From assembly GCA_947442625.1 (NCBI GenBank), contig CANEWJ010000009.1:1-37096 (forward strand): a stretch of DNA of 37,096 nucleotides. The letters run 5' to 3'. The stretch is from Chitinophagaceae bacterium. Its GTDB lineage: Bacteria > Bacteroidota > Bacteroidia > Chitinophagales > Chitinophagaceae. Both the position numbers and the translations under genes were made by a program. Of this stretch, positions 22,704 through 33,720 are shown one piece after another. The notes under the pieces were generated by a model. The model saw only the letters and a program-made list of their open reading frames with translations, had not been told where the DNA came from and made no database searches. Within the stretch, counting starts at the first letter, position 1; each line of letters begins with the position of its first letter.

Positions 22704-25181
22704 ATGAGGAACAGCAAATATTTGATGGCATTGATATCATTATTGATTTATTGTATCAATACCCATGCTACAACAATCAATGGGTTTGTTATCGATCAGT
22801 CAAAGAATCCTATAGGCTTTTGTTCTATCACCGTAAAAGAGAGCAAACAAACAGTGTTGACCAATGATCAAGGCAAGTTCTTCATATCGTTGCCAAAAGG
22901 GAAATATCATTTTGTGGTTCAGCATGTTGGTTATGAAACCATTGCGATTGATACATTGGTTGATGGAAATGAAATGCGCTTGACTTTTACCATGAAAAAT
23001 ACAACACTTACCCTTGCTGAGGTAAAGGTTAAGGCAGGAGGAGAAGATCCAGCCTATGAAATCATCCGCAATGCAATCAAGCAACGCAAGTTTTATCAAA
23101 CACAGGTTGGTGAGTATACCTGTGAGGCGTATTTAAAAGGGCTTATAAGAACGGTCAATTTTCCAGATAATTTTATGGGTCAACCCGTTGATTTTGAAGA
23201 TGGAGACAGTTCAAAAAATAAAATTATTTTCCTTTCAGAATCCATATCTGATATCGCATTCAGGCAACCTGATGATGTAAGGGTAGTGGTCAAGTCAACA
23301 AGGGTAAGTGGTCAGACCAATGGCTTGGGACTGGCTAATCCCATTTTGATTTCCTTTTATGACAACATTGTGTCCTTGCCCAAAACTTTCAATCCCAGGG
23401 GGTTTATTTCACCCATTGCAGAGGGTGCAATTGCTTACTATCGGTATAAATACCTGGGTGTTTTTTTTGAAAATGGTTACCAGGTGAATAAGATCCAGGT
23501 CATTCCCAAACGGAAATGGGAACCACTGTTTTCGGGTTACATCCAGATCATTGAGAACAGCTGGAACATACATTCAGTTAACCTTTCCATTGATAAGGAA
23601 TCTCAGTTGGAATTTGCTGACAAGATTCGCATTGAACAACAGTATAACCCTATCAATCGAAATACATGGATGATATCTACGCAAACCATTTTCCCCGAAG
23701 TAAACTTTCTGGGTTTTGCTGCATCAGGATATTTCTCAACCATTTATTCGAGATATGATGTTGATCCAGTGTTTGACAAAAAACAATTTGGAAGAACAGT
23801 GTTGAAATTTGACTCATTGTCGAATAAGCGGTCTTCCTCTTTTTGGGATGCTTCAAGGCCAATCCCTTTGGTGAAAGAGGAAATCGAAGATTTCAAAAAA
23901 AAGGATTCACTCGAAAAGAGGAGAGAAGATCCCCGGTACCTTGACTCACTGGATAAAATTCAGAACCGCATCACTGGTTTGGGCATTTTGATCAATGGCC
24001 CGCGTTTCATCAACAGAAACAAACAATCATCCTTGTCTTTTGACCCCTTGCTCAAATCGCTAAGTTTTAATACCGTCGAAGGGTGGGTTTTGCAAGGTTA
24101 TGCTTCTTTTGAAAAAGGATTGAAAGGAAGACGTCAATTGTCGGTCACTCCTGTATTGCGGTATGGTACCTCAAACCATCAACTCAATGCTTATTTCTCC
24201 AGCTCCTTCAGGTACGGTAAAAAATTTGTAAACCGGGTTTTCTTTTCAATGGGCAAAAAGGTATTTCAGTTCAACAATGCCAATCCTATTCCCCAAATCA
24301 TGAATACGGTATCAACACTGTTTGATGGAGCCAATTACATGAAAATATACCAGGCTAATTTTATGCAAGCAGGTTATTTTAAAGCTTTGGGCCATGGAAT
24401 AGACATGGATGCAAACATCCAATATCAAAACCGCAACCCGATGGTCAATGTCGATACATTGCAAATTGGGGGTAACAGAGGAAAATTTAAAAACCTGACC
24501 CCTAATTACCCGATCGAAGCAGGAACGGGGCCAATGGTTGCACATCAATCTCTCGTAGCTTCCATCAGGTTCCGGTTCAGGCCGGGTGCCCGGTATGTAG
24601 AACTGCCTGATGGCCAGGTCAATACTTTTTCAAGATCACCTGTTTTCACTTTTCAATATTCCAGGACAATCAACGGTTTGTTTGACAATGATTCAAGGTT
24701 TGGAAAATGGAGGTTTTCCGTGGTTGGGGATATCAATTTCAAGATTGGTGGGGAATTCAAATATAAAATTCAGTCAGGTGGCTTTCTCCATGCAGCGCGT
24801 GTTGAGTTGCCTGATTACAATCATTTTATCGGTAATCTGACTGGAAAAGCTACTCCCTACGTGGAAAGTTTTCAAGTAGCACCATTCTATGCCTTTTCCA
24901 ACAAAGAAAGATTCTATGGAACATTGCATGCAGAATACAAGCTCAATGGATTACTCACCAACAAGATTCCCCTCATCAAAAAACTCAATTTGCGTCTTGT
25001 TACAGGTGCCAATATGATCTTGTTGAAAGACAGGAGTTACCAGGAGTTATTTTTGGGCATTGACAATATCATCAAGGTGCTTCGGATTGATTACATCAGA
25101 GGACATGGACAATCCTTGGGCTCAACACATGGATTTAGGCTTGGTATTCGTGGGTTCAATTCGTTATTCACAGATAACTGA
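22704..25181 (+). CDS. DUF5686 outer-membrane protein with N-terminal carboxypeptidase-regulatory-like domain
   Basis: This 825-residue protein has a signal peptide (about 1-22, HA-T). A carboxypeptidase-regulatory-like Ig-fold domain occupies about residues 23-110 (INGFVIDQSKNPIGFCSITV). The DUF5686 region starts with AYEIIRNAIKQRK and GEYTCEAYLKG (about 118-150) and continues as alternating amphipathic strands to the C-terminus, consistent with a large outer-membrane barrel. No TonB plug is seen, so this is not a TonB receptor. The function of the family is unknown. A weak 5-bp hairpin with a T-rich tail follows the stop at 25184. Confidence 0.87.
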   Translation: MRNSKYLMALISLLIYCINTHATTINGFVIDQSKNPIGFCSITVKESKQTVLTNDQGKFFISLPKGKYHFVVQHVGYETIAIDTLVDGNEMRLTFTMKNTTLTLAEVKVKAGGEDPAYEIIRNAIKQRKFYQTQVGEYTCEAYLKGLIRTVNFPDNFMGQPVDFEDGDSSKNKIIFLSESISDIAFRQPDDVRVVVKSTRVSGQTNGLGLANPILISFYDNIVSLPKTFNPRGFISPIAEGAIAYYRYKYLGVFFENGYQVNKIQVIPKRKWEPLFSGYIQIIENSWNIHSVNLSIDKESQLEFADKIRIEQQYNPINRNTWMISTQTIFPEVNFLGFAASGYFSTIYSRYDVDPVFDKKQFGRTVLKFDSLSNKRSSSFWDASRPIPLVKEEIEDFKKKDSLEKRREDPRYLDSLDKIQNRITGLGILINGPRFINRNKQSSLSFDPLLKSLSFNTVEGWVLQGYASFEKGLKGRRQLSVTPVLRYGTSNHQLNAYFSSSFRYGKKFVNRVFFSMGKKVFQFNNANPIPQIMNTVSTLFDGANYMKIYQANFMQAGYFKALGHGIDMDANIQYQNRNPMVNVDTLQIGGNRGKFKNLTPNYPIEAGTGPMVAHQSLVASIRFRFRPGARYVELPDGQVNTFSRSPVFTFQYSRTINGLFDNDSRFGKWRFSVVGDINFKIGGEFKYKIQSGGFLHAARVELPDYNHFIGNLTGKATPYVESFQVAPFYAFSNKERFYGTLHAEYKLNGLLTNKIPLIKKLNLRLVTGANMILLKDRSYQELFLGIDNIIKVLRIDYIRGHGQSLGSTHGFRLGIRGFNSLFTDN

Positions 25182-25183
25182 TC

Positions 25184-25205
25184 AAGGTATCAAACCTTTT
25201 CGTAT
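25184..25205 (+). terminator. Weak possible terminator after the DUF5686 gene
   Basis: AAGGT (25184-25188) and ACCTT (25194-25198) can pair around ATCAA and are followed by TTCGTATTTTT. The stem is only five base pairs, so this may be chance. Confidence 0.3.
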
Positions 25206-25274
25206 TTTTAACCCGTTTCGGATTTTGTTCGGCCTGCAACCGAATTTCCAACACCTAAGGAATTAAAATCATTT

Positions 25275-26321
25275 ATGGCTACACTTCACAACAGGGTTTC
25301 AAGACAGGTCTTGAAGGAAAGGGCGAAAAATGACCCTAGACCCAAGAACACAGTTTCTTTTTATTGCTATTTTTCTATTCCAGATCCTGCAACAATGAGA
25401 GATGAATGGTATCGCCAACTCAATCAACTGGGTGTTTTTGGACGCATTTATATTGCAGAGGAAGGCATCAACGCACAAATCAATTGTCCTATAGCTCATT
25501 TTGAAGACCTGAAGTCATTCCTATACAGTTTTCCCGCCTTGGATGGTCTGCGGTTGAACAAGGCAGTTGAAGAAAAAGGCAATGCTTTTTATGTGCTTGA
25601 TATCAAAGTGCGAAAGAAAATTGTGGCTGATGGTATTGATGACCCAGCTTTTTCAATGGGCAATAAAGGACGCTATGTAGACGCTCAGTCCTTCAATGCT
25701 ATGGTAAAAGACCCTGGCACAATGGTGATTGACATGCGCAATCATTACGAATTTGAAGTGGGAAGGTTCAAGGATGCGATCGAAATACCCAGTGATACAT
25801 TCAGGGAGCAGTTGCCCATGGCCTCTGACATGTTTGAGACCGAGAAAGACCGTACAATAATCATGTATTGTACCGGAGGAATTCGATGTGAAAAAGCCAG
25901 TGCATGGATGCTTCACAAAGGGTTTAAGAATGTTTTTCACCTAGAAGGAGGGATTATCAACTATATCAACCAGGTCCGTGAGCATGGACTGGAAAATAAT
26001 TTCATAGGAAAAAATTTTGTTTTCGATGAGCGGCTGGGTGAACGCATCACCGCAGATATCATCTCCCATTGTCATATTTGTGGTAACCCCTGCGATGAAC
26101 ATGTGAATTGCAATAACAGCAGCTGTCATTTGCTCTTTATACAATGTGAAGCATGCAAAGATGCCCTCAGTGGATGTTGTAGCGCAGATTGCCTTGAAAT
26201 CATCAAGTTGCCTGAACCAGAACAGAAGGAAGCCAGAAAAGGGATGGACAAAGGAAGAAATATATTCAACAAGTCCAAACAGCGGATGAACTCCCTTACC
26301 AAAGAAAATAAATCATCCTAA
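25275..26321 (+). CDS. trhO: tRNA uridine(34) hydroxylase, rhodanese-type (TrhO/YceA)
   Basis: This 348-residue cytosolic protein matches TrhO, which makes 5-hydroxyuridine at tRNA wobble position 34 in an oxygen-dependent way. It has the N-terminal YceA domain (VSFYCYFSIPDP, IAEEGINAQ). A rhodanese domain at about 125-230 has active-site Cys199 in YCTGGIRCEKA. A Cys-rich C-terminal segment at about 265-307 (CHICGNPCDEH, CEACKDALSGCC) looks zinc-binding. The length equals that of E. coli YceA. It probably has its own promoter in the 93-bp gap before it, though I could not define one. Its stop codon overlaps that of purC, which converges from the other strand. Confidence 0.92.
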   Translation: MATLHNRVSRQVLKERAKNDPRPKNTVSFYCYFSIPDPATMRDEWYRQLNQLGVFGRIYIAEEGINAQINCPIAHFEDLKSFLYSFPALDGLRLNKAVEEKGNAFYVLDIKVRKKIVADGIDDPAFSMGNKGRYVDAQSFNAMVKDPGTMVIDMRNHYEFEVGRFKDAIEIPSDTFREQLPMASDMFETEKDRTIIMYCTGGIRCEKASAWMLHKGFKNVFHLEGGIINYINQVREHGLENNFIGKNFVFDERLGERITADIISHCHICGNPCDEHVNCNNSSCHLLFIQCEACKDALSGCCSADCLEIIKLPEPEQKEARKGMDKGRNIFNKSKQRMNSLTKENKSS

Positions 26322-27241
26322 GGCAGCGCATGCAATGAAGCGACAACTTTGTCATATGTTTCCTGATCAGAGATCTCAGCAGGAGAGAAGGGCTCACCAA
26401 TCAGTTTTTCATACAATTCAATATACCTTCCTGAGATGATTGAAATCCATTCATCAGACATTTCAGGAACTGTTTGTCCTTCTTTCCCCATAAAACCATT
26501 GGCCATTAACCATTCTCTTACAAACTCTTTGCTCAATTGAAGCTGTCTTTCTCCCTTGGACTGTCGTTCTTCAAATCCTTCTGCAAAGAAATACCTTGAT
26601 GAATCGGGGGTATGTATTTCATCCATCAACACTATCTGATTGTCAAGTTTTCCAAATTCATACTTGGTATCAGCCAGGATGAGCCCTTGTTTTTCAGCAA
26701 TTGACTTACCTCTTTCAAATAAAGCGAAAGTGTATTTTTTGAGTACTTCCCATTCGTCTTTTGTGGCAAGCCCCTGTGCAATAATTTCTGCTTCGCTGAT
26801 GTCCTCATCATGGCCTGCAGCCGCTTTTGTTGAAGGTGTAATTAAAGGGACTGGGAAAAAATCATTTTCCTTGAGGCCATCTGGCATGACTTGTCCACAT
26901 AATATCCTGCCTGTTTGGTATGTTCGCCAGGCATGACCAACCAAGTTACCCCTGACCACCATTTCTATTTTAAATGGGGTGCATAAATGACCAATGGATA
27001 CGATGGGGGCTGGTACATCCACGAGCCAATTGGAGCATATATCTTTGGTATTGCTTAACATATATGCCGCTATCTGGTTCAAAACCTGTCCTTTATAAGG
27101 GATAGGTCTTGGTAAAATCACATCAAAAGCAGATATCCTGTTGCTGGCCACCATTACCAAATATTGATCACGAATGGTGTATACATCCCTCACTTTTCCA
27201 GAATAAAAAGCTGTTTGAGATGGAAAGTTAAATTGGTTCAT
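26318..27241 (-). CDS. purC: Phosphoribosylaminoimidazole-succinocarboxamide synthase (SAICAR synthetase)
   Basis: This cytosolic enzyme joins aspartate to CAIR with ATP in de novo purine synthesis. The 307 residues are of the longer, Ade1-like form. The ATP-binding start is YSGKVRDVYTI (13-23), followed by SAFDVILPRPIPYKG, VRGNLVGHAW, TPSTKAAAGHDEDIS and the late DTKYEFGK. The stop TAG (26320-26318) overlaps the trhO stop by two bases, so neither gene has room for a private terminator. A weak -7-like TAATTTAG lies just upstream of the ATG on the minus strand. No other purine gene is in the window. Confidence 0.96.
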   Translation of the reverse strand: MNQFNFPSQTAFYSGKVRDVYTIRDQYLVMVASNRISAFDVILPRPIPYKGQVLNQIAAYMLSNTKDICSNWLVDVPAPIVSIGHLCTPFKIEMVVRGNLVGHAWRTYQTGRILCGQVMPDGLKENDFFPVPLITPSTKAAAGHDEDISEAEIIAQGLATKDEWEVLKKYTFALFERGKSIAEKQGLILADTKYEFGKLDNQIVLMDEIHTPDSSRYFFAEGFEERQSKGERQLQLSKEFVREWLMANGFMGKEGQTVPEMSDEWISIISGRYIELYEKLIGEPFSPAEISDQETYDKVVASLHALP

Positions 27242-27319
27242 GGCACTAAATTAGATTCAGTGACTGAGACTTCCAACTTTAAACAGTATGAACATTAGGC
27301 TTTTTTAGTTGTTTCAAAA

Positions 27320-27350
27320 TTTGTTAATGATATTAACAATGCCTATTTTG
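27320..27350 (+). promoter_or_regulatory. Possible promoter for the TonB receptor-fasciclin pair
   Basis: TTTG (27320-27323) is followed after 20 bases by TATTTTG (27344-27350), one base short of the TAnnTTTG consensus. It sits 28 bases before the receptor ATG, which is the expected arrangement. The short -7 box makes the call tentative. Confidence 0.4.
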
Positions 27351-27378
27351 GCTCCAAATTTGATCAAAACTACTGCTT

Positions 27379-30117
27379 ATGAAAAGATTAGCTTGCTTTG
27401 CAGCCTTGCTATTGATGATGCTGCCGGCTATTGTTAACGCGCAAAATGTTTATATTACCGGAAATGTGAAGAGCGCTTCTGGAGGTGAATCCTTGGGTTC
27501 AGTTTCTGTTACCTTAAAGGGAAATTCCAATGGAACGTTTACCGACAACAAGGGTAATTTCAGGCTCAGCTTACCCTCAAAAACCAAATTTCCTGTTACC
27601 GTTCTTTTTTCTTCCATTGGTTTCGGCATCACTGAAGTGAGTGTTGCTGCAGCCGGTGAAATGAAATCCGTTGCATTAAATCCATCTTCGACACTCGGAG
27701 AAGAGGTGGTTGTTTCTGCCACCAGAACGCCAACTAAAATCCTTGAATCGCCTGTTTCTATTGAACGCGTGAGCCTTGCGTCCATAAGGAATTCACCTTC
27801 GGCTGATTATTTTGACATGGCAACCAACCTGAAAGGTGTTGACATGGTGGCATCAAGCTTAACCTTCAAAACAGTTACCACCAGGGGTTTTGCTGGTAGT
27901 GGTAACACAAGATTTACCCAGATTGTAGACGGAATGGACAATCAAGCACCTGGTTTGAACTTTTCTGTGGGAAGCATAGCCGCACTCAACGAACTTGATG
28001 TTGAAAGCATGGAACTTTTGCAAGGTGCCTCATCTGCACTCTATGGACCAGGTGGTATGAATGGTACTTTGTTGATCAACAGCAAAGATCCTTTCAAATA
28101 CCAAGGTCTTTCATTCCAAATGAAAAATGGTGTAATGCATACAGATGGTAAATACCGTGATCCAGCACCTTATTACAACTGGGATGTACGGTATGCCAAA
28201 AAAGTTTCTGACAGGTTTGCGTACAAATTCACTGCTGGTATCATTCAGGCGAAAGACTGGTTGGCTGCAGACAGCAGAAACATCAACAGGGCTCCAGGTG
28301 CCAATTTCAATACCATTAATCCTGGTACACGCAATACTGACCCCAATTATGATGGTTTGAACTTTTACGGTGATGAAACAAACTTGGATTTGAACCTGAT
28401 ACTCAATGGTATTGCTGGTCAGGCTCCATTTTTGGCCCCCTATATCTCTACATTAACAGGTTCTCCAAACCTGGTTTCAAGAACGGGATACTCTGAAAAA
28501 GAAGTTACCAATCCTAATACTATCAATTTCAAATTGGGTGGTTCTTTGAACTATAAGCTTACCAATTCCATTGAAGCAATCCTCTCTGCCAATTGGGGTA
28601 CTGGTAATACTGTCTATACAGGAAGTGAGAGATATTCTATTCTAGACCTGAAATTGGGTCAGTATAAACTTGAATTCAAGCACAAGAACTGGATGTTAAG
28701 GGCATATACCACCCAAGAAAATGCTGGTCAAGCATATAATACTACTGTTACTACGCGCCTCTTTAATGAAGCTTGGAAAGGTTCACAGCAATGGTTTACT
28801 GAGTATGGTCAGGCTTTCCTTGGTGCAAAGTTGAATGGGATGTCTCATATGGACGCCCACAACGTGGCACGTTCTTTGGCCGATGTGGGAAGACCTGTTG
28901 CAGGAAGTGCAAGGTTTCAGTCTCTCTATGATGCTATTCGAATAAATCCTATCTCTAAAGGTGGTGGTCGGCTTATCGATAGAACCAATTTGTATGCAGT
29001 TGAAGGCCAGTACAACCTCAGCGAGTTGACAGGCAAATTTGCCGAAGTACTCGTTGGCGGTAATTTCAGGAGATTTTTATTGAATTCAGAAGGTACTTTG
29101 TTTGCTGACTCTGCTAACAAAATTCCAATCAACGAATACGGTGCATACGTTCAGCTTGCCAAAGGTTTTGCCAAAGACCTGATCAAGTTTACTGTTTCTG
29201 GTCGATTTGATAAAAATGAAAACTTCAAAGGTCGTTTCACGCCAAGGGCTACCATGCTCTTTAAAGTGGCAAAAGACAATCATTTGAGGTTATCCTATCA
29301 AACTGCCTATAGATTCCCTTCAACACAACAGCAGTACATCAACCTTGCTGTGGGTGGAGCAATCCTCTCTGGTGGTGTACCTGCGATGAAAGATTTTTAT
29401 AAGGTAACAACCAATCCAGTTTACTCAGTAGCTGCGCTTGGAGCCGGACAGCTGAAAGTACAGGACCTTCCAGAATTCAATCCTGAAGCTGTAACCTCTT
29501 TTGAATTAGGTTACCGTGGATTGCTTGCCAATTCAAGGTTGTTGGTAGATGTCTATGGATACATTGGAAATTACCAGGATTTCATCACCCGTGTAATTGT
29601 AGCACAATCCATCAGGAGTACCCCAAGTCCTGCAGATGTAATCAATGCGGCTACAAGAAGAATCATTTCTTTCCCCATCAATTCACCAACCCCTGTAAAA
29701 ACTTCAGGATTTGGTCTTTCATTGGAGTATAAATTCAAAAAAGGTTTTTACCTGAATACGAACTTCTCCTCTGATAGATTGGGTGAAGTTCCCAATGGCT
29801 ATATCACTTATTTCAATGCACCAAAGTACAGAGCAAATGCAACATTCGGTAACACTGGTTTCGGAAAAAGCAAACGCCTTGGATTCAATTTCGTTTACCG
29901 CTTCCAATCTTCGTTTTATTACGAAAGTGATCTTGCCAATGGAGATGTTCCATCTTACCAGGTTCTTGATGCACAGATCAGCTACAGGTTGCCTGCCGTA
30001 AATTCTGTCTTGAAATTGGGTGCGAACAATTTGTTGAACCAATACTATATTACTGCATTGGCCAATCCTTCTATCGGTGGCTTGTACTATGTATCTTTTG
30101 GTTATAACATATTTTAA
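27379..30117 (+). CDS. TonB-dependent outer-membrane receptor with carboxypeptidase-regulatory-like N-domain
   Basis: This 912-residue protein has a signal peptide (about 1-21, VNA-Q). A carboxypeptidase-regulatory-like domain covers about 24-105. The TonB plug (about 112-235) contains EEVVVSATRTPTKILESPVSI, TRGFAGSGNTRFTQIVDGMD and ELLQGASSALYGPGGMNG. A 22-strand-type barrel fills the rest and ends in YYVSFGYNIF with the terminal Phe expected for barrel insertion. It is a classical receptor rather than a SusC protein, and there is no SusD gene. The next gene, 35 bp downstream, encodes a fasciclin-domain lipoprotein and is probably co-transcribed. The substrate is unknown; a siderophore, cofactor or peptide are all possible. 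Confidence 0.92.
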   Translation: MKRLACFAALLLMMLPAIVNAQNVYITGNVKSASGGESLGSVSVTLKGNSNGTFTDNKGNFRLSLPSKTKFPVTVLFSSIGFGITEVSVAAAGEMKSVALNPSSTLGEEVVVSATRTPTKILESPVSIERVSLASIRNSPSADYFDMATNLKGVDMVASSLTFKTVTTRGFAGSGNTRFTQIVDGMDNQAPGLNFSVGSIAALNELDVESMELLQGASSALYGPGGMNGTLLINSKDPFKYQGLSFQMKNGVMHTDGKYRDPAPYYNWDVRYAKKVSDRFAYKFTAGIIQAKDWLAADSRNINRAPGANFNTINPGTRNTDPNYDGLNFYGDETNLDLNLILNGIAGQAPFLAPYISTLTGSPNLVSRTGYSEKEVTNPNTINFKLGGSLNYKLTNSIEAILSANWGTGNTVYTGSERYSILDLKLGQYKLEFKHKNWMLRAYTTQENAGQAYNTTVTTRLFNEAWKGSQQWFTEYGQAFLGAKLNGMSHMDAHNVARSLADVGRPVAGSARFQSLYDAIRINPISKGGGRLIDRTNLYAVEGQYNLSELTGKFAEVLVGGNFRRFLLNSEGTLFADSANKIPINEYGAYVQLAKGFAKDLIKFTVSGRFDKNENFKGRFTPRATMLFKVAKDNHLRLSYQTAYRFPSTQQQYINLAVGGAILSGGVPAMKDFYKVTTNPVYSVAALGAGQLKVQDLPEFNPEAVTSFELGYRGLLANSRLLVDVYGYIGNYQDFITRVIVAQSIRSTPSPADVINAATRRIISFPINSPTPVKTSGFGLSLEYKFKKGFYLNTNFSSDRLGEVPNGYITYFNAPKYRANATFGNTGFGKSKRLGFNFVYRFQSSFYYESDLANGDVPSYQVLDAQISYRLPAVNSVLKLGANNLLNQYYITALANPSIGGLYYVSFGYNIF

Positions 30118-30152
30118 TTGTCAGCACAAATCATTGAAATAAAAAAAATATC

Positions 30153-31202
30153 ATGAAAAAAATATACAATTCTTTCAAGTTCATTCTTCCACTGATCATA
30201 CTGGTCGTGGTGGTATCAACTTCTTGTAACAAGGATGTTCCAGCCGCTATGCCCATTGTTCCAACATCTGCTGGCAGCACGATTGGAGACATTCTTACTA
30301 CCAATCCTAATTTTACAATCCTGAGGGCTGCAGTTACAAAAGCGGGTATGATGGATGCTGTTTCTAGCAAAAGCAATGTATTCACTGTTTTTGCTCCCAG
30401 TGATGCTGCATTCATCGCGTCTGGTATCCCATTGGCTGCTATCAATGCACTTCCAGCTGCATCGGTTGCAAGCATTGTTCAGTACCATGTTGTTCCGGGT
30501 CGCAAGCTCATGTCTTCTGCAGTACCCACCAGTTTCCCGAATGTACAGATGCCAACATCGTTCATTATTCCTGCACCGAACACCAATCCATTGGTGCGGT
30601 TCAGCAATTTTCCTTCAAGAAGGGGAGACAGGGTTTGGGTTAACAATATACCGGTGGTTACCCCAGATGTTGATGCTGCCAACGGTTCCATTCATGTAAC
30701 AGCTGCAGTTCTTGCACCTCCATCAAGGGTTTTGTTGGATACCATTTCTAGGGAAGCGGATATGTCCTATCTTGTTGCTGCCATTCTTAGGGCTGATGCC
30801 GCTACTCCTGCAGGCTCACGCTTTCAGGATTTTCTCGCCAACCCAGTGGCCAATTTGACGGTAATGGCTCCTACCAATACTGCTTTCAATGCATTGTTCA
30901 CTTCACTTAGGTTGCCTGCTTCGCCTGCATCGTTTGGATTGTTACCTGTAGCCCAGGTTCAAGCAATTGTTGCCTACCATGTGTTGGTGGGACGCGCTTT
31001 TTCTCCCAATCTCCCAACTGCTGCTACACCTGTACCAACGCTTCTGTCTGCTTCTTTGCCTACAGCTCCATTGTTGACTGTTGATGCAACCCAGGGTGTA
31101 AGAGGTGCTAGAAACCCACGCTATTCAAGAATTACTGCAGTTGACAGACATGCCATCAATGGTGTATACCACAAAATTGACCAGGTGCTCATGCCACAAT
31201 AA
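30153..31202 (+). CDS. Lipoprotein with two fasciclin (FAS1) domains
   Basis: This 349-residue exported protein has a lipoprotein-type signal ending at Cys25 (STSCNKD). Two FAS1 domains follow, at about 44-190 and 200-347. Each shows the family pattern: TVFAPSDAAF ... IVQYHVVPGR in the first, and TVMAPTNTAF ... IVAYHVLVGR in the second. The end of each repeat is similar too (NGSIHVTAAVLAPP and NGVYHKIDQVLMPQ). FAS1 domains mediate adhesion or ligand binding at surfaces. The gene is 35 bp behind the TonB receptor and ends at a strong terminator, so receptor and lipoprotein form a two-gene unit. Surface exposure is inferred, not shown. Confidence 0.92.
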   Translation: MKKIYNSFKFILPLIILVVVVSTSCNKDVPAAMPIVPTSAGSTIGDILTTNPNFTILRAAVTKAGMMDAVSSKSNVFTVFAPSDAAFIASGIPLAAINALPAASVASIVQYHVVPGRKLMSSAVPTSFPNVQMPTSFIIPAPNTNPLVRFSNFPSRRGDRVWVNNIPVVTPDVDAANGSIHVTAAVLAPPSRVLLDTISREADMSYLVAAILRADAATPAGSRFQDFLANPVANLTVMAPTNTAFNALFTSLRLPASPASFGLLPVAQVQAIVAYHVLVGRAFSPNLPTAATPVPTLLSASLPTAPLLTVDATQGVRGARNPRYSRITAVDRHAINGVYHKIDQVLMPQ

Positions 31203-31219
31203 ACTTCAGTAGCAATAAT

Positions 31220-31254
31220 AAAAAGACCGGTCTCACATGAGCCGGTCTTTTTTT
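31220..31254. terminator. Strong bidirectional terminator between the fasciclin gene and ychF
   Basis: AAAAAGACCGG (31220-31230) pairs perfectly with CCGGTCTTTTT (31242-31252). An inner CTCA/TGAG helix extends the stem after a single bulged T. The 3' arm runs into seven Ts. The A-rich 5' arm gives a U-tract for ychF transcripts coming from the other side. Confidence 0.88.
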
Positions 31255-31287
31255 ATGTAGATCAATAAAATCTTTAAATCCTACTCG

Positions 31288-32388
31288 TTAAACGTTGAAC
31301 CTAAAATGCATAATGTCTCCATCCTGTACTATATAATCTTTACCCTGTACAGCCATTTTACCGGCTTCTTTGCAGGCAGCTTCTGACCCAAGGGTGGTGA
31401 AGTCTGAATACCCAATTACCTCAGCCCTGATAAAACCTTTTTCAAAATCTGTATGAATAACACCTGCAGCCTGAGGTGCAAGCATTCCTTTGGTAATTGT
31501 CCAAGCACGTACTTCCTGTACACCAGCTGTAAAATAGGTTGCGAGGTTGAGCAATGTATAGGTTGAACGGATCAGCCTAACCACACCGCTTTCAGAAAGC
31601 CCGAGATCGGTCAGGAACATCAACCTGTCGTCATAGCTTTCCATCACAGCTATCTCACTTTCAATGGCTGCACTGACAAAAAGAATTTCAGCATGTTCCA
31701 GTTTGATAGCTTCTTTGACCTGTTCAGTATACATGTTACCGCTCACAACACTTTTCTCATCAACATTGCATACATAAACGACCGGTTTAATGGTCAGCAA
31801 AAACATATCATTGATGTATTTCTCTTTTTCATCTTCACTGATCTCAAAAGCACGGGCATTTTTTCCCTGGTCAAGATGATCTTTAAGCGCCCTCAACACC
31901 TCAATACCCCTCAATATTTCCCTATCACTGCTTTTGGACAGTTTTTCAGATTTGGATAATTTTTTCTCGACACTTTCAAGGTCTTTCAATTGTAGTTCTG
32001 TATCAATCACCTCCTTGTCTCTAACCGGATTTACGTTGCCATCCACATGAATGACATTGTCATCCTCAAAGCACCTGAGTACATGAATAATGGCATCTGT
32101 TGCCCTGATATTGCCAAGGAACTGGTTTCCCAGCCCTTCGCCCTTGCTGGCACCTTTGACCAAGCCGGCGATATCAACAATTTCTACGTTGGTTGGCACT
32201 ACCTTCTGCGGTTTTACGATCTTTTCAAGTTCAATAAGCCTGTCATCGGGAACAGTAATGACTCCGATATTGGGTTCAATGGTGCAGAACGGAAAATTTG
32301 CTGCCTGTGCTTTTGCACTGCTAAGTGCATTAAATAGGGTTGATTTTCCTACATTTGGTAATCCGACAATGCCAGCCTGTAATGCCAT
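31288..32388 (-). CDS. ychF: Obg-family ATPase/GTPase YchF
   Basis: This conserved cytosolic P-loop protein hydrolyses ATP and binds ribosomes. In bacteria it is linked to oxidative-stress response and translation. From the ATG at 32388 it has 366 residues, the usual family length. The P-loop is GLPNVGKST (9-17), switch II is DIAGLVKGASKGEGLGN, and the altered G4 motif NVDE is the one that favours ATP. The C-terminal TGS domain contains FTAGVQEVRAWTI and FEKGFIRAEVIGY. The frame is open 27 codons further upstream, to 32469, but that extension is not family-like and lies across the -7 box at 32407-32414. Confidence 0.95.
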   Translation of the reverse strand: MALQAGIVGLPNVGKSTLFNALSSAKAQAANFPFCTIEPNIGVITVPDDRLIELEKIVKPQKVVPTNVEIVDIAGLVKGASKGEGLGNQFLGNIRATDAIIHVLRCFEDDNVIHVDGNVNPVRDKEVIDTELQLKDLESVEKKLSKSEKLSKSSDREILRGIEVLRALKDHLDQGKNARAFEISEDEKEKYINDMFLLTIKPVVYVCNVDEKSVVSGNMYTEQVKEAIKLEHAEILFVSAAIESEIAVMESYDDRLMFLTDLGLSESGVVRLIRSTYTLLNLATYFTAGVQEVRAWTITKGMLAPQAAGVIHTDFEKGFIRAEVIGYSDFTTLGSEAACKEAGKMAVQGKDYIVQDGDIMHFRFNV

Positions 32389-32406
32389 AGTATTGATTTT
32401 GCGTGG

Positions 32407-32414
32407 CAAAGATA
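32407..32414 (-). promoter_or_regulatory. -7 box of the ychF promoter
   Basis: On the minus strand TATCTTTG matches TAnnTTTG exactly and lies 18 bases before the ychF ATG at 32388. No clear TTTG is found at the -33 distance. Confidence 0.5.
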
Positions 32415-32475
32415 GTGCGAATGATGTGATAAGGGCATCCTTTGTTGGAATAACATTCAAAGCAATCATCCACCA

Positions 32476-33720
32476 ATGGCATTAAATTACATCTGGTTCT
32501 TTTTTTTCATCATTGCTTTTGCCATTGCACTTGCTAAGTGGATAATTACAGGCGATCCCCTGATTTTCAAAGCCGTTACTGAAGGTATTTTCAAGTCAGC
32601 CAATGATAGCGTTGATCTTTCGTTTAAGCTGATTGGTATCATGACATTGTTCCTTGGCTTCATGAACATAGGGGAGAAGGCAGGGGCCATTCGCTTTCTT
32701 TCTAAACTTGTTGCACCTTTTTTCAGCAAACTGTTTCCCGAAATTCCGCCCAAACACCCTGCCTACGGGCACATGATGATGAATTTTTCCGCCAATTTAC
32801 TCGGGTTGGACAATGCAGCAACTCCCTTTGGCCTTAAGGCCATGGAAAGTCTTCAAACGCTAAACCCCAGCAAAGAAACAGCCAGCAACGCCCAAATCAT
32901 GTTTTTGGTACTGCATGCTTCTGGTCTCACTTTGATTCCCATCAGCATCATCGCCATGAGGGCCTCTGTATCTCCTCCATCCGCAAACCCAACCGATATC
33001 TTTATCCCTTGCATGATTGCCACCTTTGCAGCCACAGTCGCTGCGCTTACCATTGTATCCATCAGGCAAAAAATCAATTTATTCCAGCCCGTCATACTGG
33101 CCTGGATAGGAGGTATTTCATTGCTCATTGGGCTTTTGATTGCCTACCTTAAAATATTCCTGTCTCAAGTGCAAATCGAATCTTTTTCGACAATTTTGAG
33201 CAATGGACTGATTCTTTTTATTTTTCTTGTCTTCTTGACTGGAGGGGTTTATAAAAAAGTCAATGTTTTTGAGTCATTCATTGAAGGAGCCAAAGGCGGT
33301 TTTGAGATTGCCATCAAGATCATCCCTTACCTGGTTGCCATGCTTGTTGCCATCAGTGTATTACGAACTTCTGGGGCATTTGAATTCATCACAGGTGGAA
33401 TGAAAACTTTATTTTCTTACATGGGGATGGATACGCAGTTTGTTTCTGCGCTTCCAACGGCCATGATGAAACCGCTGAGTGGTAGTGGATCCAGGGCAAT
33501 GATGGTAGACACCATGACAACCTATGGTGCCGATTCATTTGCTGGCAGATTATCCGCAATTTTTCAGGGGAGCAGTGATACCACTTTTTATGTGATTGCT
33601 GTCTATTTTGGATCTGTGGGTATTAAAAATACCCGTTATTCTATACCAAGTATGTTATTGGCCGACTTGGTTGGTATAATTACAGCCATTTTTGTAGCTT
33701 ACCTCTTTTTCGGAAATTGA
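32476..33720 (+). CDS. SpmA-SpmB fusion, nucleoside-recognition (Gate) domain membrane protein
   Basis: This 414-residue integral membrane protein joins the two 'spore maturation' proteins in one chain. The SpmA-like half covers about 1-210 (GDPLIFKAVTEGIFKSA, MMMNFSANLLGLDNAATPFGLKAM). The SpmB-like half covers about 225-414 (FIEGAKGGFEIAIKIIPYLVAM, PLSGSGSRAMMVD, GSSDTTFYVIAVYFGSVG). In Bacillus the two proteins affect spore-core dehydration. This organism is presumably non-sporulating, so the role must differ, and transport of a small solute or nucleoside is the general suggestion. It is divergent from ychF and abuts folB, with two bases between its stop and the preferred folB start. Confidence 0.87.
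   Translation: MALNYIWFFFFIIAFAIALAKWIITGDPLIFKAVTEGIFKSANDSVDLSFKLIGIMTLFLGFMNIGEKAGAIRFLSKLVAPFFSKLFPEIPPKHPAYGHMMMNFSANLLGLDNAATPFGLKAMESLQTLNPSKETASNAQIMFLVLHASGLTLIPISIIAMRASVSPPSANPTDIFIPCMIATFAATVAALTIVSIRQKINLFQPVILAWIGGISLLIGLLIAYLKIFLSQVQIESFSTILSNGLILFIFLVFLTGGVYKKVNVFESFIEGAKGGFEIAIKIIPYLVAMLVAISVLRTSGAFEFITGGMKTLFSYMGMDTQFVSALPTAMMKPLSGSGSRAMMVDTMTTYGADSFAGRLSAIFQGSSDTTFYVIAVYFGSVGIKNTRYSIPSMLLADLVGIITAIFVAYLFFGN

Follow-up and report, generated by a model that had tools for sequence, protein, structure and literature searches.

A TonB-dependent receptor encoded with a double-FAS1 lipoprotein in Chitinophagaceae: a putative two-gene uptake unit

What does a lipoprotein built of two fasciclin (FAS1) domains do directly behind the gene of a TonB-dependent receptor? 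The question is raised by the window, the whole stretch of 37,096 nucleotides of a Chitinophagaceae genome analysed here, in which a receptor gene (27379..30117, + strand; 912 aa) is followed after 35 bp (30118..30152, +) by the gene of a lipoprotein (30153..31202, +; 349 aa, lipobox Cys25), and the pair is closed by a terminator hairpin with a U tract (31220..31254, +). Both the spacing and the strong terminator claimed in an earlier note on this DNA hold up: the ORF coordinates are exact, and folding of 31203-31262 yields -21 kcal/mol (z -4.93), with none of 200 shuffles equally stable. The stem holds a one-base bulge and was overlooked by a simple terminator scan. Given the A-rich stretch on the other side of the hairpin, the terminator is possibly a two-way element that also serves the convergent ychF-like gene.

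Upstream, the divergent neighbour (26318..27241, - strand), which by its sequence is probably purC (SAICAR synthase), provides context and is not part of the unit; the receptor is divergent from this gene in 78 of the 101 receptor loci listed. The gap between them contains a promoter-like core, TTAACAATGCCTATTTTGG (27333..27351, +), which is conserved in an alignment of 118 of the 138 purC-receptor gaps and has a similar counterpart upstream of receptors both with and without FAS1, and which we regard as a candidate promoter. A consensus scan of 26500-32500 gave no excess of promoters (10 vs 12.7 in shuffles) or terminators (3 vs 4.8). An operator palindrome at 27321-27339 is carried by the window and three near relatives and thus, present in only 4 of the 138 gaps, was rejected as a family regulator. 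A riboswitch as a clue to the ligand was likewise dismissed, the Rfam scan of 25000-32600 up to E 0.1 giving no riboswitch match and a single sub-threshold lncRNA match.

The receptor is composed of a signal peptide, a CarboxypepD-like N-terminal domain, a plug and a barrel (Pfam CarbopepD_reg_2, 1e-12; Plug, 8e-11; TonB barrel, 2e-25), the latter with 22 strands in our reading of the single-chain AlphaFold2 model (pLDDT 83.2). Foldseek with this model returns Cir, PirA, BtuB and PfeA as top matches and BtuB3 of the BtuB3G3 complex at rank 30, with no SusC among the best 50 matches listed, and the score against the NCBIfam SusC/RagA model TIGR04056 (89.7 bits) lies far under the cut-off of 368.25. 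Judged on the model, the fold is therefore of the siderophore/B12 type rather than the SusC type, and a SusCD unit is ruled out by the TIGR04056 score together with the absence of SusC among the Foldseek matches listed. The observation that the pair lacks a SusD was correct: no SusD gene adjoins it, the next gene being the FAS1 gene and the flanks the purC-like and ychF-like genes, and the 22 SusD-like matches of the genome, 20 of which exceed the family cut-off, are all located on other contigs. As substrate, a glycan is less likely than a small molecule resembling a siderophore, heme or cobalamin.

The lipoprotein matches Pfam Fasciclin in two stretches (1.5e-33; 116.1 bits vs a cut-off of 22), corresponding to FAS1 domains at residues 52-189 and about 224-348, and its single-chain AlphaFold2 model (pLDDT 90.5) finds the tandem FAS1 domains of TGFBIp (E 4.8e-17) and periostin as best Foldseek matches. 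The FAS1 fold is familiar chiefly from adhesion proteins of animals. One rival explanation sees in the lipoprotein an adhesion protein of the cell surface that is merely co-transcribed and makes no contact with the receptor, in line with the two best structural matches, with the description of FAS1 as a classical adhesion domain in the accessible text of PMC10147662, and with the invariant residues, which resemble the usual FAS1 core and show no obvious ligand site. We consider it unlikely, for reasons that lie in the recurrence and history of the pair given below. The algal protein AstaP (structures 22iy and 8c18) is also among the Foldseek matches, and a second rival holds that the lipoprotein captures a ligand, for example a hydrophobic or pigment-like one between the FAS1 helices as in AstaP, hands it on and so sets specificity. 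The accessible text of PMC10147662 describes carotenoid binding by FAS1, yet it states that small-ligand binding is not known as a common property of FAS1 domains and reports a cyanobacterial homologue that bound no carotenoid; BtuG and XusB, for their part, directly bind ligand according to the accessible parts of PMC10404256 and PMC13142918.

The earlier note had asked whether the lipoprotein carries a surface-export signal after Cys25. The residues that follow are indeed N-K-D, the translated ORF continuing from the lipobox as C-N-K-D-V. In the accessible text of PMC5080379 the Bacteroidota export signal is K-(D/E)2 from position +3, as defined in other genera. Of the 86 partner N-termini here, 85 have the lysine at +3, mostly within a C-N-K start, whereas the strict signal is found in 0 of 86, which does not exclude export because the motif was defined in other genera. 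A lysine followed by one D/E occurs in 52 of the 86, and 77 have an acidic residue somewhere in +4 to +6. All 18 readable SusD-like proteins of the same genome (19 fetched from the 22 matches) start with C-x-K as well; so does its BamD (C-S-K), and surface exposure is thus not established by this start. The partial signal and the similarity to BamD are what speak for a third rival, a periplasm-facing lipoprotein that helps the receptor to assemble, to stay stable or to couple to TonB. We regard it as improbable, since the N-terminus resembles that of the SusD-like proteins, acidic residues are common at +4 to +6, and neither the plug nor the N-terminal domain contains any of the six signature sites of paired receptors described below.

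The pair recurs widely, contrary to the outcome that the earlier note had named as a refutation. In a scan of named genomes, this receptor lies directly upstream in 71 of the 74 FAS1 loci that have an upstream ORF, and FAS1 is carried by 19 of the 101 receptor loci (among the loci listed); these two sets overlap (e.g., L181/L067), so that their counts are not independent, and the 100 fetched receptor loci are among the matches listed, with some genomes contributing two. Chance neighbourhood is ruled out by this recurrence. Of the 65 loci measured, 62 have a receptor-FAS1 gap between -1 and 51 nt, and the outliers are at -65, 67 and 76; for ORF calling a plain longest-ORF script took the place of a gene finder, so starts are approximate (e.g., L237). 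The pairing is kept across 12 genus codes within the family as sampled, and neither the receptor nor the SusC queries match any of 13 further FAS1 loci from this family (L022-L028, L030-L035; each about 3.9 kb); both observations argue against an unrelated adhesion protein. Outside the family, FAS1 was found in none of the fetched stretches of 12 receptor homologues and a close receptor beside none of 8 FAS1 loci. In L309, one of the loci outside the family, the second ORF downstream matches the receptor weakly (25%).

Sixty of the 78 purC-linked receptor loci carry no FAS1. The receptor, judged from these loci, predates the pairing and mostly lacks a FAS1 partner, so that FAS1 is a later accessory. 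Such an order of events fits a lid or helper better than a capture protein that defines the substrate. Receptors paired with FAS1 fall into a single clade (SH-aLRT 98) in a first tree that omits 6 of the 101 loci (fragments L103, L118, L164 and L165; split ORFs L089 and L155), and support is 98 or 100 with the loop-2 columns omitted, where L091 is left out as well. After restoring the six loci, the clade consists of the 18 paired rows plus two fragments, L103 (paired) and L165 (contig ending within the receptor), while the four restored loci without FAS1 all place outside it. No FAS1-less receptor was found inside the paired clade in the trees of the listed receptor loci, which again is at odds with a merely co-transcribed adhesion protein. 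The partner FAS1 proteins also form a single clade (support 100), separate from 17 other FAS1 lipoproteins, and FAS1 seems to have been acquired once inside Chitinophagaceae (family from record titles) and then kept. Receptor and FAS1 distances correlate at 0.49, and at 0.47 after accounting for purC, with 0 of 2000 permutations as high, the permutation ignoring the tree; a correlation beyond the purC effect is a further point against the adhesion explanation. The partner proteins have diverged more quickly than the receptor (mean distance 1.08 vs 0.60), which counts against ligand capture.

Plug conservation is similar, at 0.83 in paired vs 0.80 in unpaired receptors, which weakens the capture explanation and suggests that FAS1 came as a lid or helper and not with a new substrate. 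Only six signature sites mark the paired receptors, and together these two results indicate that the substrate probably did not change when FAS1 was acquired. On this evidence, ligand capture that sets specificity appears quite unlikely. Extracellular loops hold no excess of these sites (3/6, Fisher p 0.68), and a FAS1 footprint on receptor residues was dropped. Loop 2, placed by the model between strands 280-292 and 380-393 and presumably extracellular by strand parity, has a variable part at residues 328-385 (28360..28533, +). With a line of 66 aa, set after the paired receptors were seen, the loop is at or below that length in 18 of 18 FAS1-paired receptors of the tree, 2 of 58 purC-linked receptors without FAS1 (median of the 58, 103.5 aa), 7 of 7 receptors paired with a beta-helix protein and 9 of 70 with neither partner; 11 further purC-linked receptors without FAS1 have loops of 67-81 aa. 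Loop-2 length as an independent correlate of FAS1 was dropped, as it rests on one independent contrast.

Taken together, we propose, with somewhat better than even confidence, that the pair is a two-gene outer-membrane uptake unit in which a siderophore/B12-type receptor is joined by a lipid-anchored double-FAS1 protein as extracellular lid or docking helper. At the level of sequence, the analysis shows that the genes are co-directional and close, with a terminator after the second, that the lipoprotein has a lipobox, that the pairing is conserved, that receptors and partners each form one clade, and that the receptor predates the pairing. Both genes would be co-transcribed from the receptor promoter and the lipoprotein flipped to the cell surface, where it would bind the receptor with its N-terminal linker beside the shortened extracellular loop 2. 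By opening and closing over the vestibule it might keep substrate near the plug or shield the channel, the substrate being the same as before the acquisition of FAS1. More tentatively, and with clearly less confidence than in the unit itself, the pair may represent a new class of lidded TonB transporters, in which tandem FAS1 was recruited once, a long Ala-rich self-capping loop 2 was lost or is absent, and FAS1 took over the capping done by the loop in partnerless relatives. A concrete, testable role is thus offered for a bacterial double-FAS1 lipoprotein.

By analogy, the pair is most likely a lipoprotein-assisted TonB transporter comparable to BtuBG and XusAB with a new partner fold, double FAS1 being neither a beta-propeller as in BtuG and XusB nor SusD. 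With SusCD glycan transporters it shares the CarboxypepD-like N-terminal domain and a downstream lipoprotein gene; it differs in the missing SusD, the receptor score under the SusC cut-off and the lack of SusC among the Foldseek matches listed. The nearest paralogue group in the tree comprises receptors beside a TIGR03805 beta-helix protein and a TIGR03806 diheme cytochrome (NCBIfam name, SO2930 family diheme cytochrome), with the partner gene at most 30 bp downstream in six loci and a loop 2 that is also short (58-60 aa), but with a beta-helix partner and, in L099, aldehyde dehydrogenase and TetR genes upstream. ORFs similar to these two occur in some other loci of this group. Similar to the window pair, the vitamin B12 transporter BtuBG of Bacteroides couples a receptor of small-molecule fold, BtuB3 being among our matches, to a lipoprotein encoded with it. 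BtuG and XusB are described as lids on TonB transporters in the accessible text of PMC10404256 and PMC13142918, and in that of the former the BtuG linker is gripped by loops 2 and 11; the first of these two linker-holding loops is the one that is short in paired receptors here. BtuBG differs in its beta-propeller partner, in its substrate B12, for which the Rfam scan of our locus offers no riboswitch counterpart, and in its Bacteroides host as opposed to carriers in Chitinophagaceae (record titles). The Bacteroides xenosiderophore transporter XusAB has the same two-component design, but its lipoprotein is a DUF4374 beta-propeller, and our pair is known from genes and single-chain models. FAS1 proteins as TonB-receptor partners were not described in a literature search mostly at title level, in agreement with the earlier impression that this is not a standard system. 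The same purC-adjoining receptor with and without its partner constitutes a before-and-after series, and hence a natural system for studying the contribution of a lipoprotein partner to a TonB receptor. The TonB receptor-lipoprotein structures in the literature found, as far as the accessible texts go, come from gut Bacteroides and have SusD or beta-propeller partners, whereas the partner described here, in an environmental family (record titles), has another fold.

The receptor gene (27379-30117, + strand; 912 amino acids; Pfam CarbopepD_reg_2, Plug and barrel) and the lipoprotein gene (30153-31202, + strand; 349 amino acids; Pfam Fasciclin in two stretches) are separated by 35 bp. A terminator-like hairpin and its U tract occupy 31220-31254; with its flanks, the hairpin folds at -21 kcal/mol (z -4.93; 0 of 200 shuffles equally good), and it is absent from the list of a consensus terminator scan. 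The layout proposed in the earlier note, a closely spaced pair closed by a strong terminator, is thereby confirmed, including its coordinates. The pair is isolated as a unit by a divergent gene on one side and a convergent gene on the other, which their protein sequences suggest to be purC-like and ychF-like, respectively. The SusC/RagA model scores 89.7 bits on the receptor, under its cut-off of 368.25.

Searching with the receptor (E 1e-80) gave matches in 107 of 147 sampled genomes of Chitinophagaceae; 100 receptor loci among the matches listed (two from some genomes) and the window make up a set of 101 loci. FAS1 is the next same-strand gene in 19 of these, and a beta-helix protein takes its place beside seven receptors. 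A second set was built with a FAS1 alignment as query, retaining the best 80 of 439 relatives. Here, this type of receptor lies immediately upstream of FAS1 in 71 of the 74 loci having an upstream ORF, with purC ahead of the receptor in 62 of the 71. In one exception (L241) the receptor is found further upstream, beyond one small opposite-strand ORF; the other two, L240 (Maribellus) and L243 (Cognataquiflexum), have no receptor upstream of FAS1 and show the lowest FAS1 profile scores among the 80 (158 and 133, against at least 239 for the paired loci). The counts of both sets cannot be summed since they have contigs in common, yet in each the pairing recurs. Record titles in the second set name the genera Flavihumibacter, Flavisolibacter, Cnuella, Ginsengibacter, Ferruginibacter, Niabella and Flavipsychrobacter among others. 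A purC-receptor-FAS1 locus also occurs in a MAG labelled Streptomyces griseus (L236), probably a mixed or mislabelled bin.

The purC-like gene (26318-27378 including the gap) and the receptor stay divergent neighbours, at most two ORFs apart, in 78 of the 101 loci (18 with FAS1, 60 without), while other neighbours vary. Their shared gap retains a TAACAAT..TATTTTG core; a perfect 8-3-8 palindrome of the gap, TTGTTAATGATATTAACAA (27321-27339), is present in 4 of 138 gaps, in near relatives only.

A 95-receptor tree puts all 18 FAS1-paired receptors, which cover 12 genus codes, on one side of a single branch (SH-aLRT 98), and a 94-row tree without the loop-2 columns, under a mixture model, again gives the paired group as one change (support 98 as drawn, 100 in the table). 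With six omitted fragments restored, the clade gains two members, L103, a paired fragment, and L165, where the receptor gene runs off the contig end; the four restored fragments without FAS1 all fall outside, and no FAS1-less receptor was found within the clade in the tree or among the fragments. The 19 partner FAS1 proteins likewise form a single group against 17 other FAS1 lipoproteins (support 100). Outside Chitinophagaceae, FAS1 was seen in the fetched stretch of 0 of 12 receptor homologues, and a close receptor at 0 of 8 FAS1 loci. Given a single clade of receptors and a single clade of partners, FAS1 was most likely gained once, by an older purC-linked receptor. Among 49 non-redundant of 58 receptor-FAS1-purC triples, pairwise distances correlate at 0.49 (receptor-FAS1), 0.37 (receptor-purC) and 0.17 (FAS1-purC); the partial receptor-FAS1 correlation of 0.47, reached in 0 of 2000 permutations, is supportive only because permutation ignores the tree. 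In some partner proteins (L077:9414-10700 and L085:5536-6855), the second FAS1 domain is interrupted by long insertions not present in the protein of the window.

Strand parity places a putative extracellular loop 2 at receptor residues 293-379. Its variable stretch (328-385) measures 56-65 amino acids in 18/18 FAS1-paired receptors and has a median of 103.5 in 58 purC-linked receptors without FAS1 (at most 66, a limit set post hoc, in two, and 67-81 in 11 more). It is also short in 7/7 beta-helix-paired receptors (58-64) and in 9/70 receptors with neither partner (at most 66), one of which (L147) precedes a 144-aa lipoprotein-like ORF. Since loop length against FAS1 pairing represents a single independent contrast and the paralogue outgroup has short loops, the short loop may be ancestral. 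Plug conservation is 0.83 across 58 non-redundant FAS1-paired receptors and 0.80 across 66 without FAS1. Only six sites mark the paired clade, without enrichment in extracellular loops (3/6, p 0.68). These near-equal values and few signature sites suggest the same substrate before and after FAS1 acquisition; plug conservation may reflect TonB coupling as well.

The nearest receptor paralogues (L092, L096, L097, L099-L102) adjoin a TIGR03805-like beta-helix protein and, except at L092, a gene resembling the TIGR03806 SO2930-family diheme cytochrome (NCBIfam was run on L096 and L092 only); L099 has aldehyde dehydrogenase and TetR genes upstream. They represent a second receptor-plus-partner unit that deserves separate study. 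Other double-FAS1 lipoproteins occur in different settings: one in the window's own genome (L256:983-2014) is separated from a nearby SusD-like gene by a single opposite-strand ORF, and several of Chitinophagaceae (L022-L035 except L029) adjoin genes that by eye resemble LytTR-type two-component genes.

The published surface-export signal of lipoproteins is K-(D/E)2 at +3 (PMC5080379). Among 86 partner N-termini, pooled from both overlapping sets, K occupies +3 in 85, N occupies +2 in 82 and 77 have an acidic residue somewhere from +4 to +6; none shows the strict signal. The match to the export signal proposed for testing behind the cysteine is only partial. All 18 readable SusD-like proteins of the same genome (19 fetched, 22 matches) start with C-x-K, as does its BamD, and the partner N-terminus is compatible with surface export without proving it.

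AlphaFold2 yields a good model of the lipoprotein (pLDDT 90.5), closest by Foldseek to the TGFBIp and periostin tandems, and a fair model of the receptor (pLDDT 83.2, plug weaker), closest to Cir, PirA, BtuB and PfeA; BtuB3 from BtuB3G3 ranks 30th, and SusC does not appear in the best 50 matches. The FAS1 lipoprotein itself possibly captures ligand, as AstaP binds carotenoids, but the paper on AstaP states that FAS1 domains are not known to share any small-ligand binding (PMC10147662). Among open-licence papers, we found no description of the pairing of FAS1 with a TonB receptor, and the passages checked that name both fasciclin and TonB or Sus proteins mention the two separately, in agreement with the earlier view that this is not a standard described system. 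The best-supported mechanism, by analogy, is that the FAS1 lipoprotein would act as a lid or docking helper on the receptor, modelled on BtuBG and XusAB; the texts on these (PMC10404256, PMC13142918) do not contain the word fasciclin. Loops 2 and 11 of BtuBG hold the linker of its lipoprotein (PMC10404256), and loop 2 is the loop that differs among the receptors here, a parallel that serves as an analogy only.
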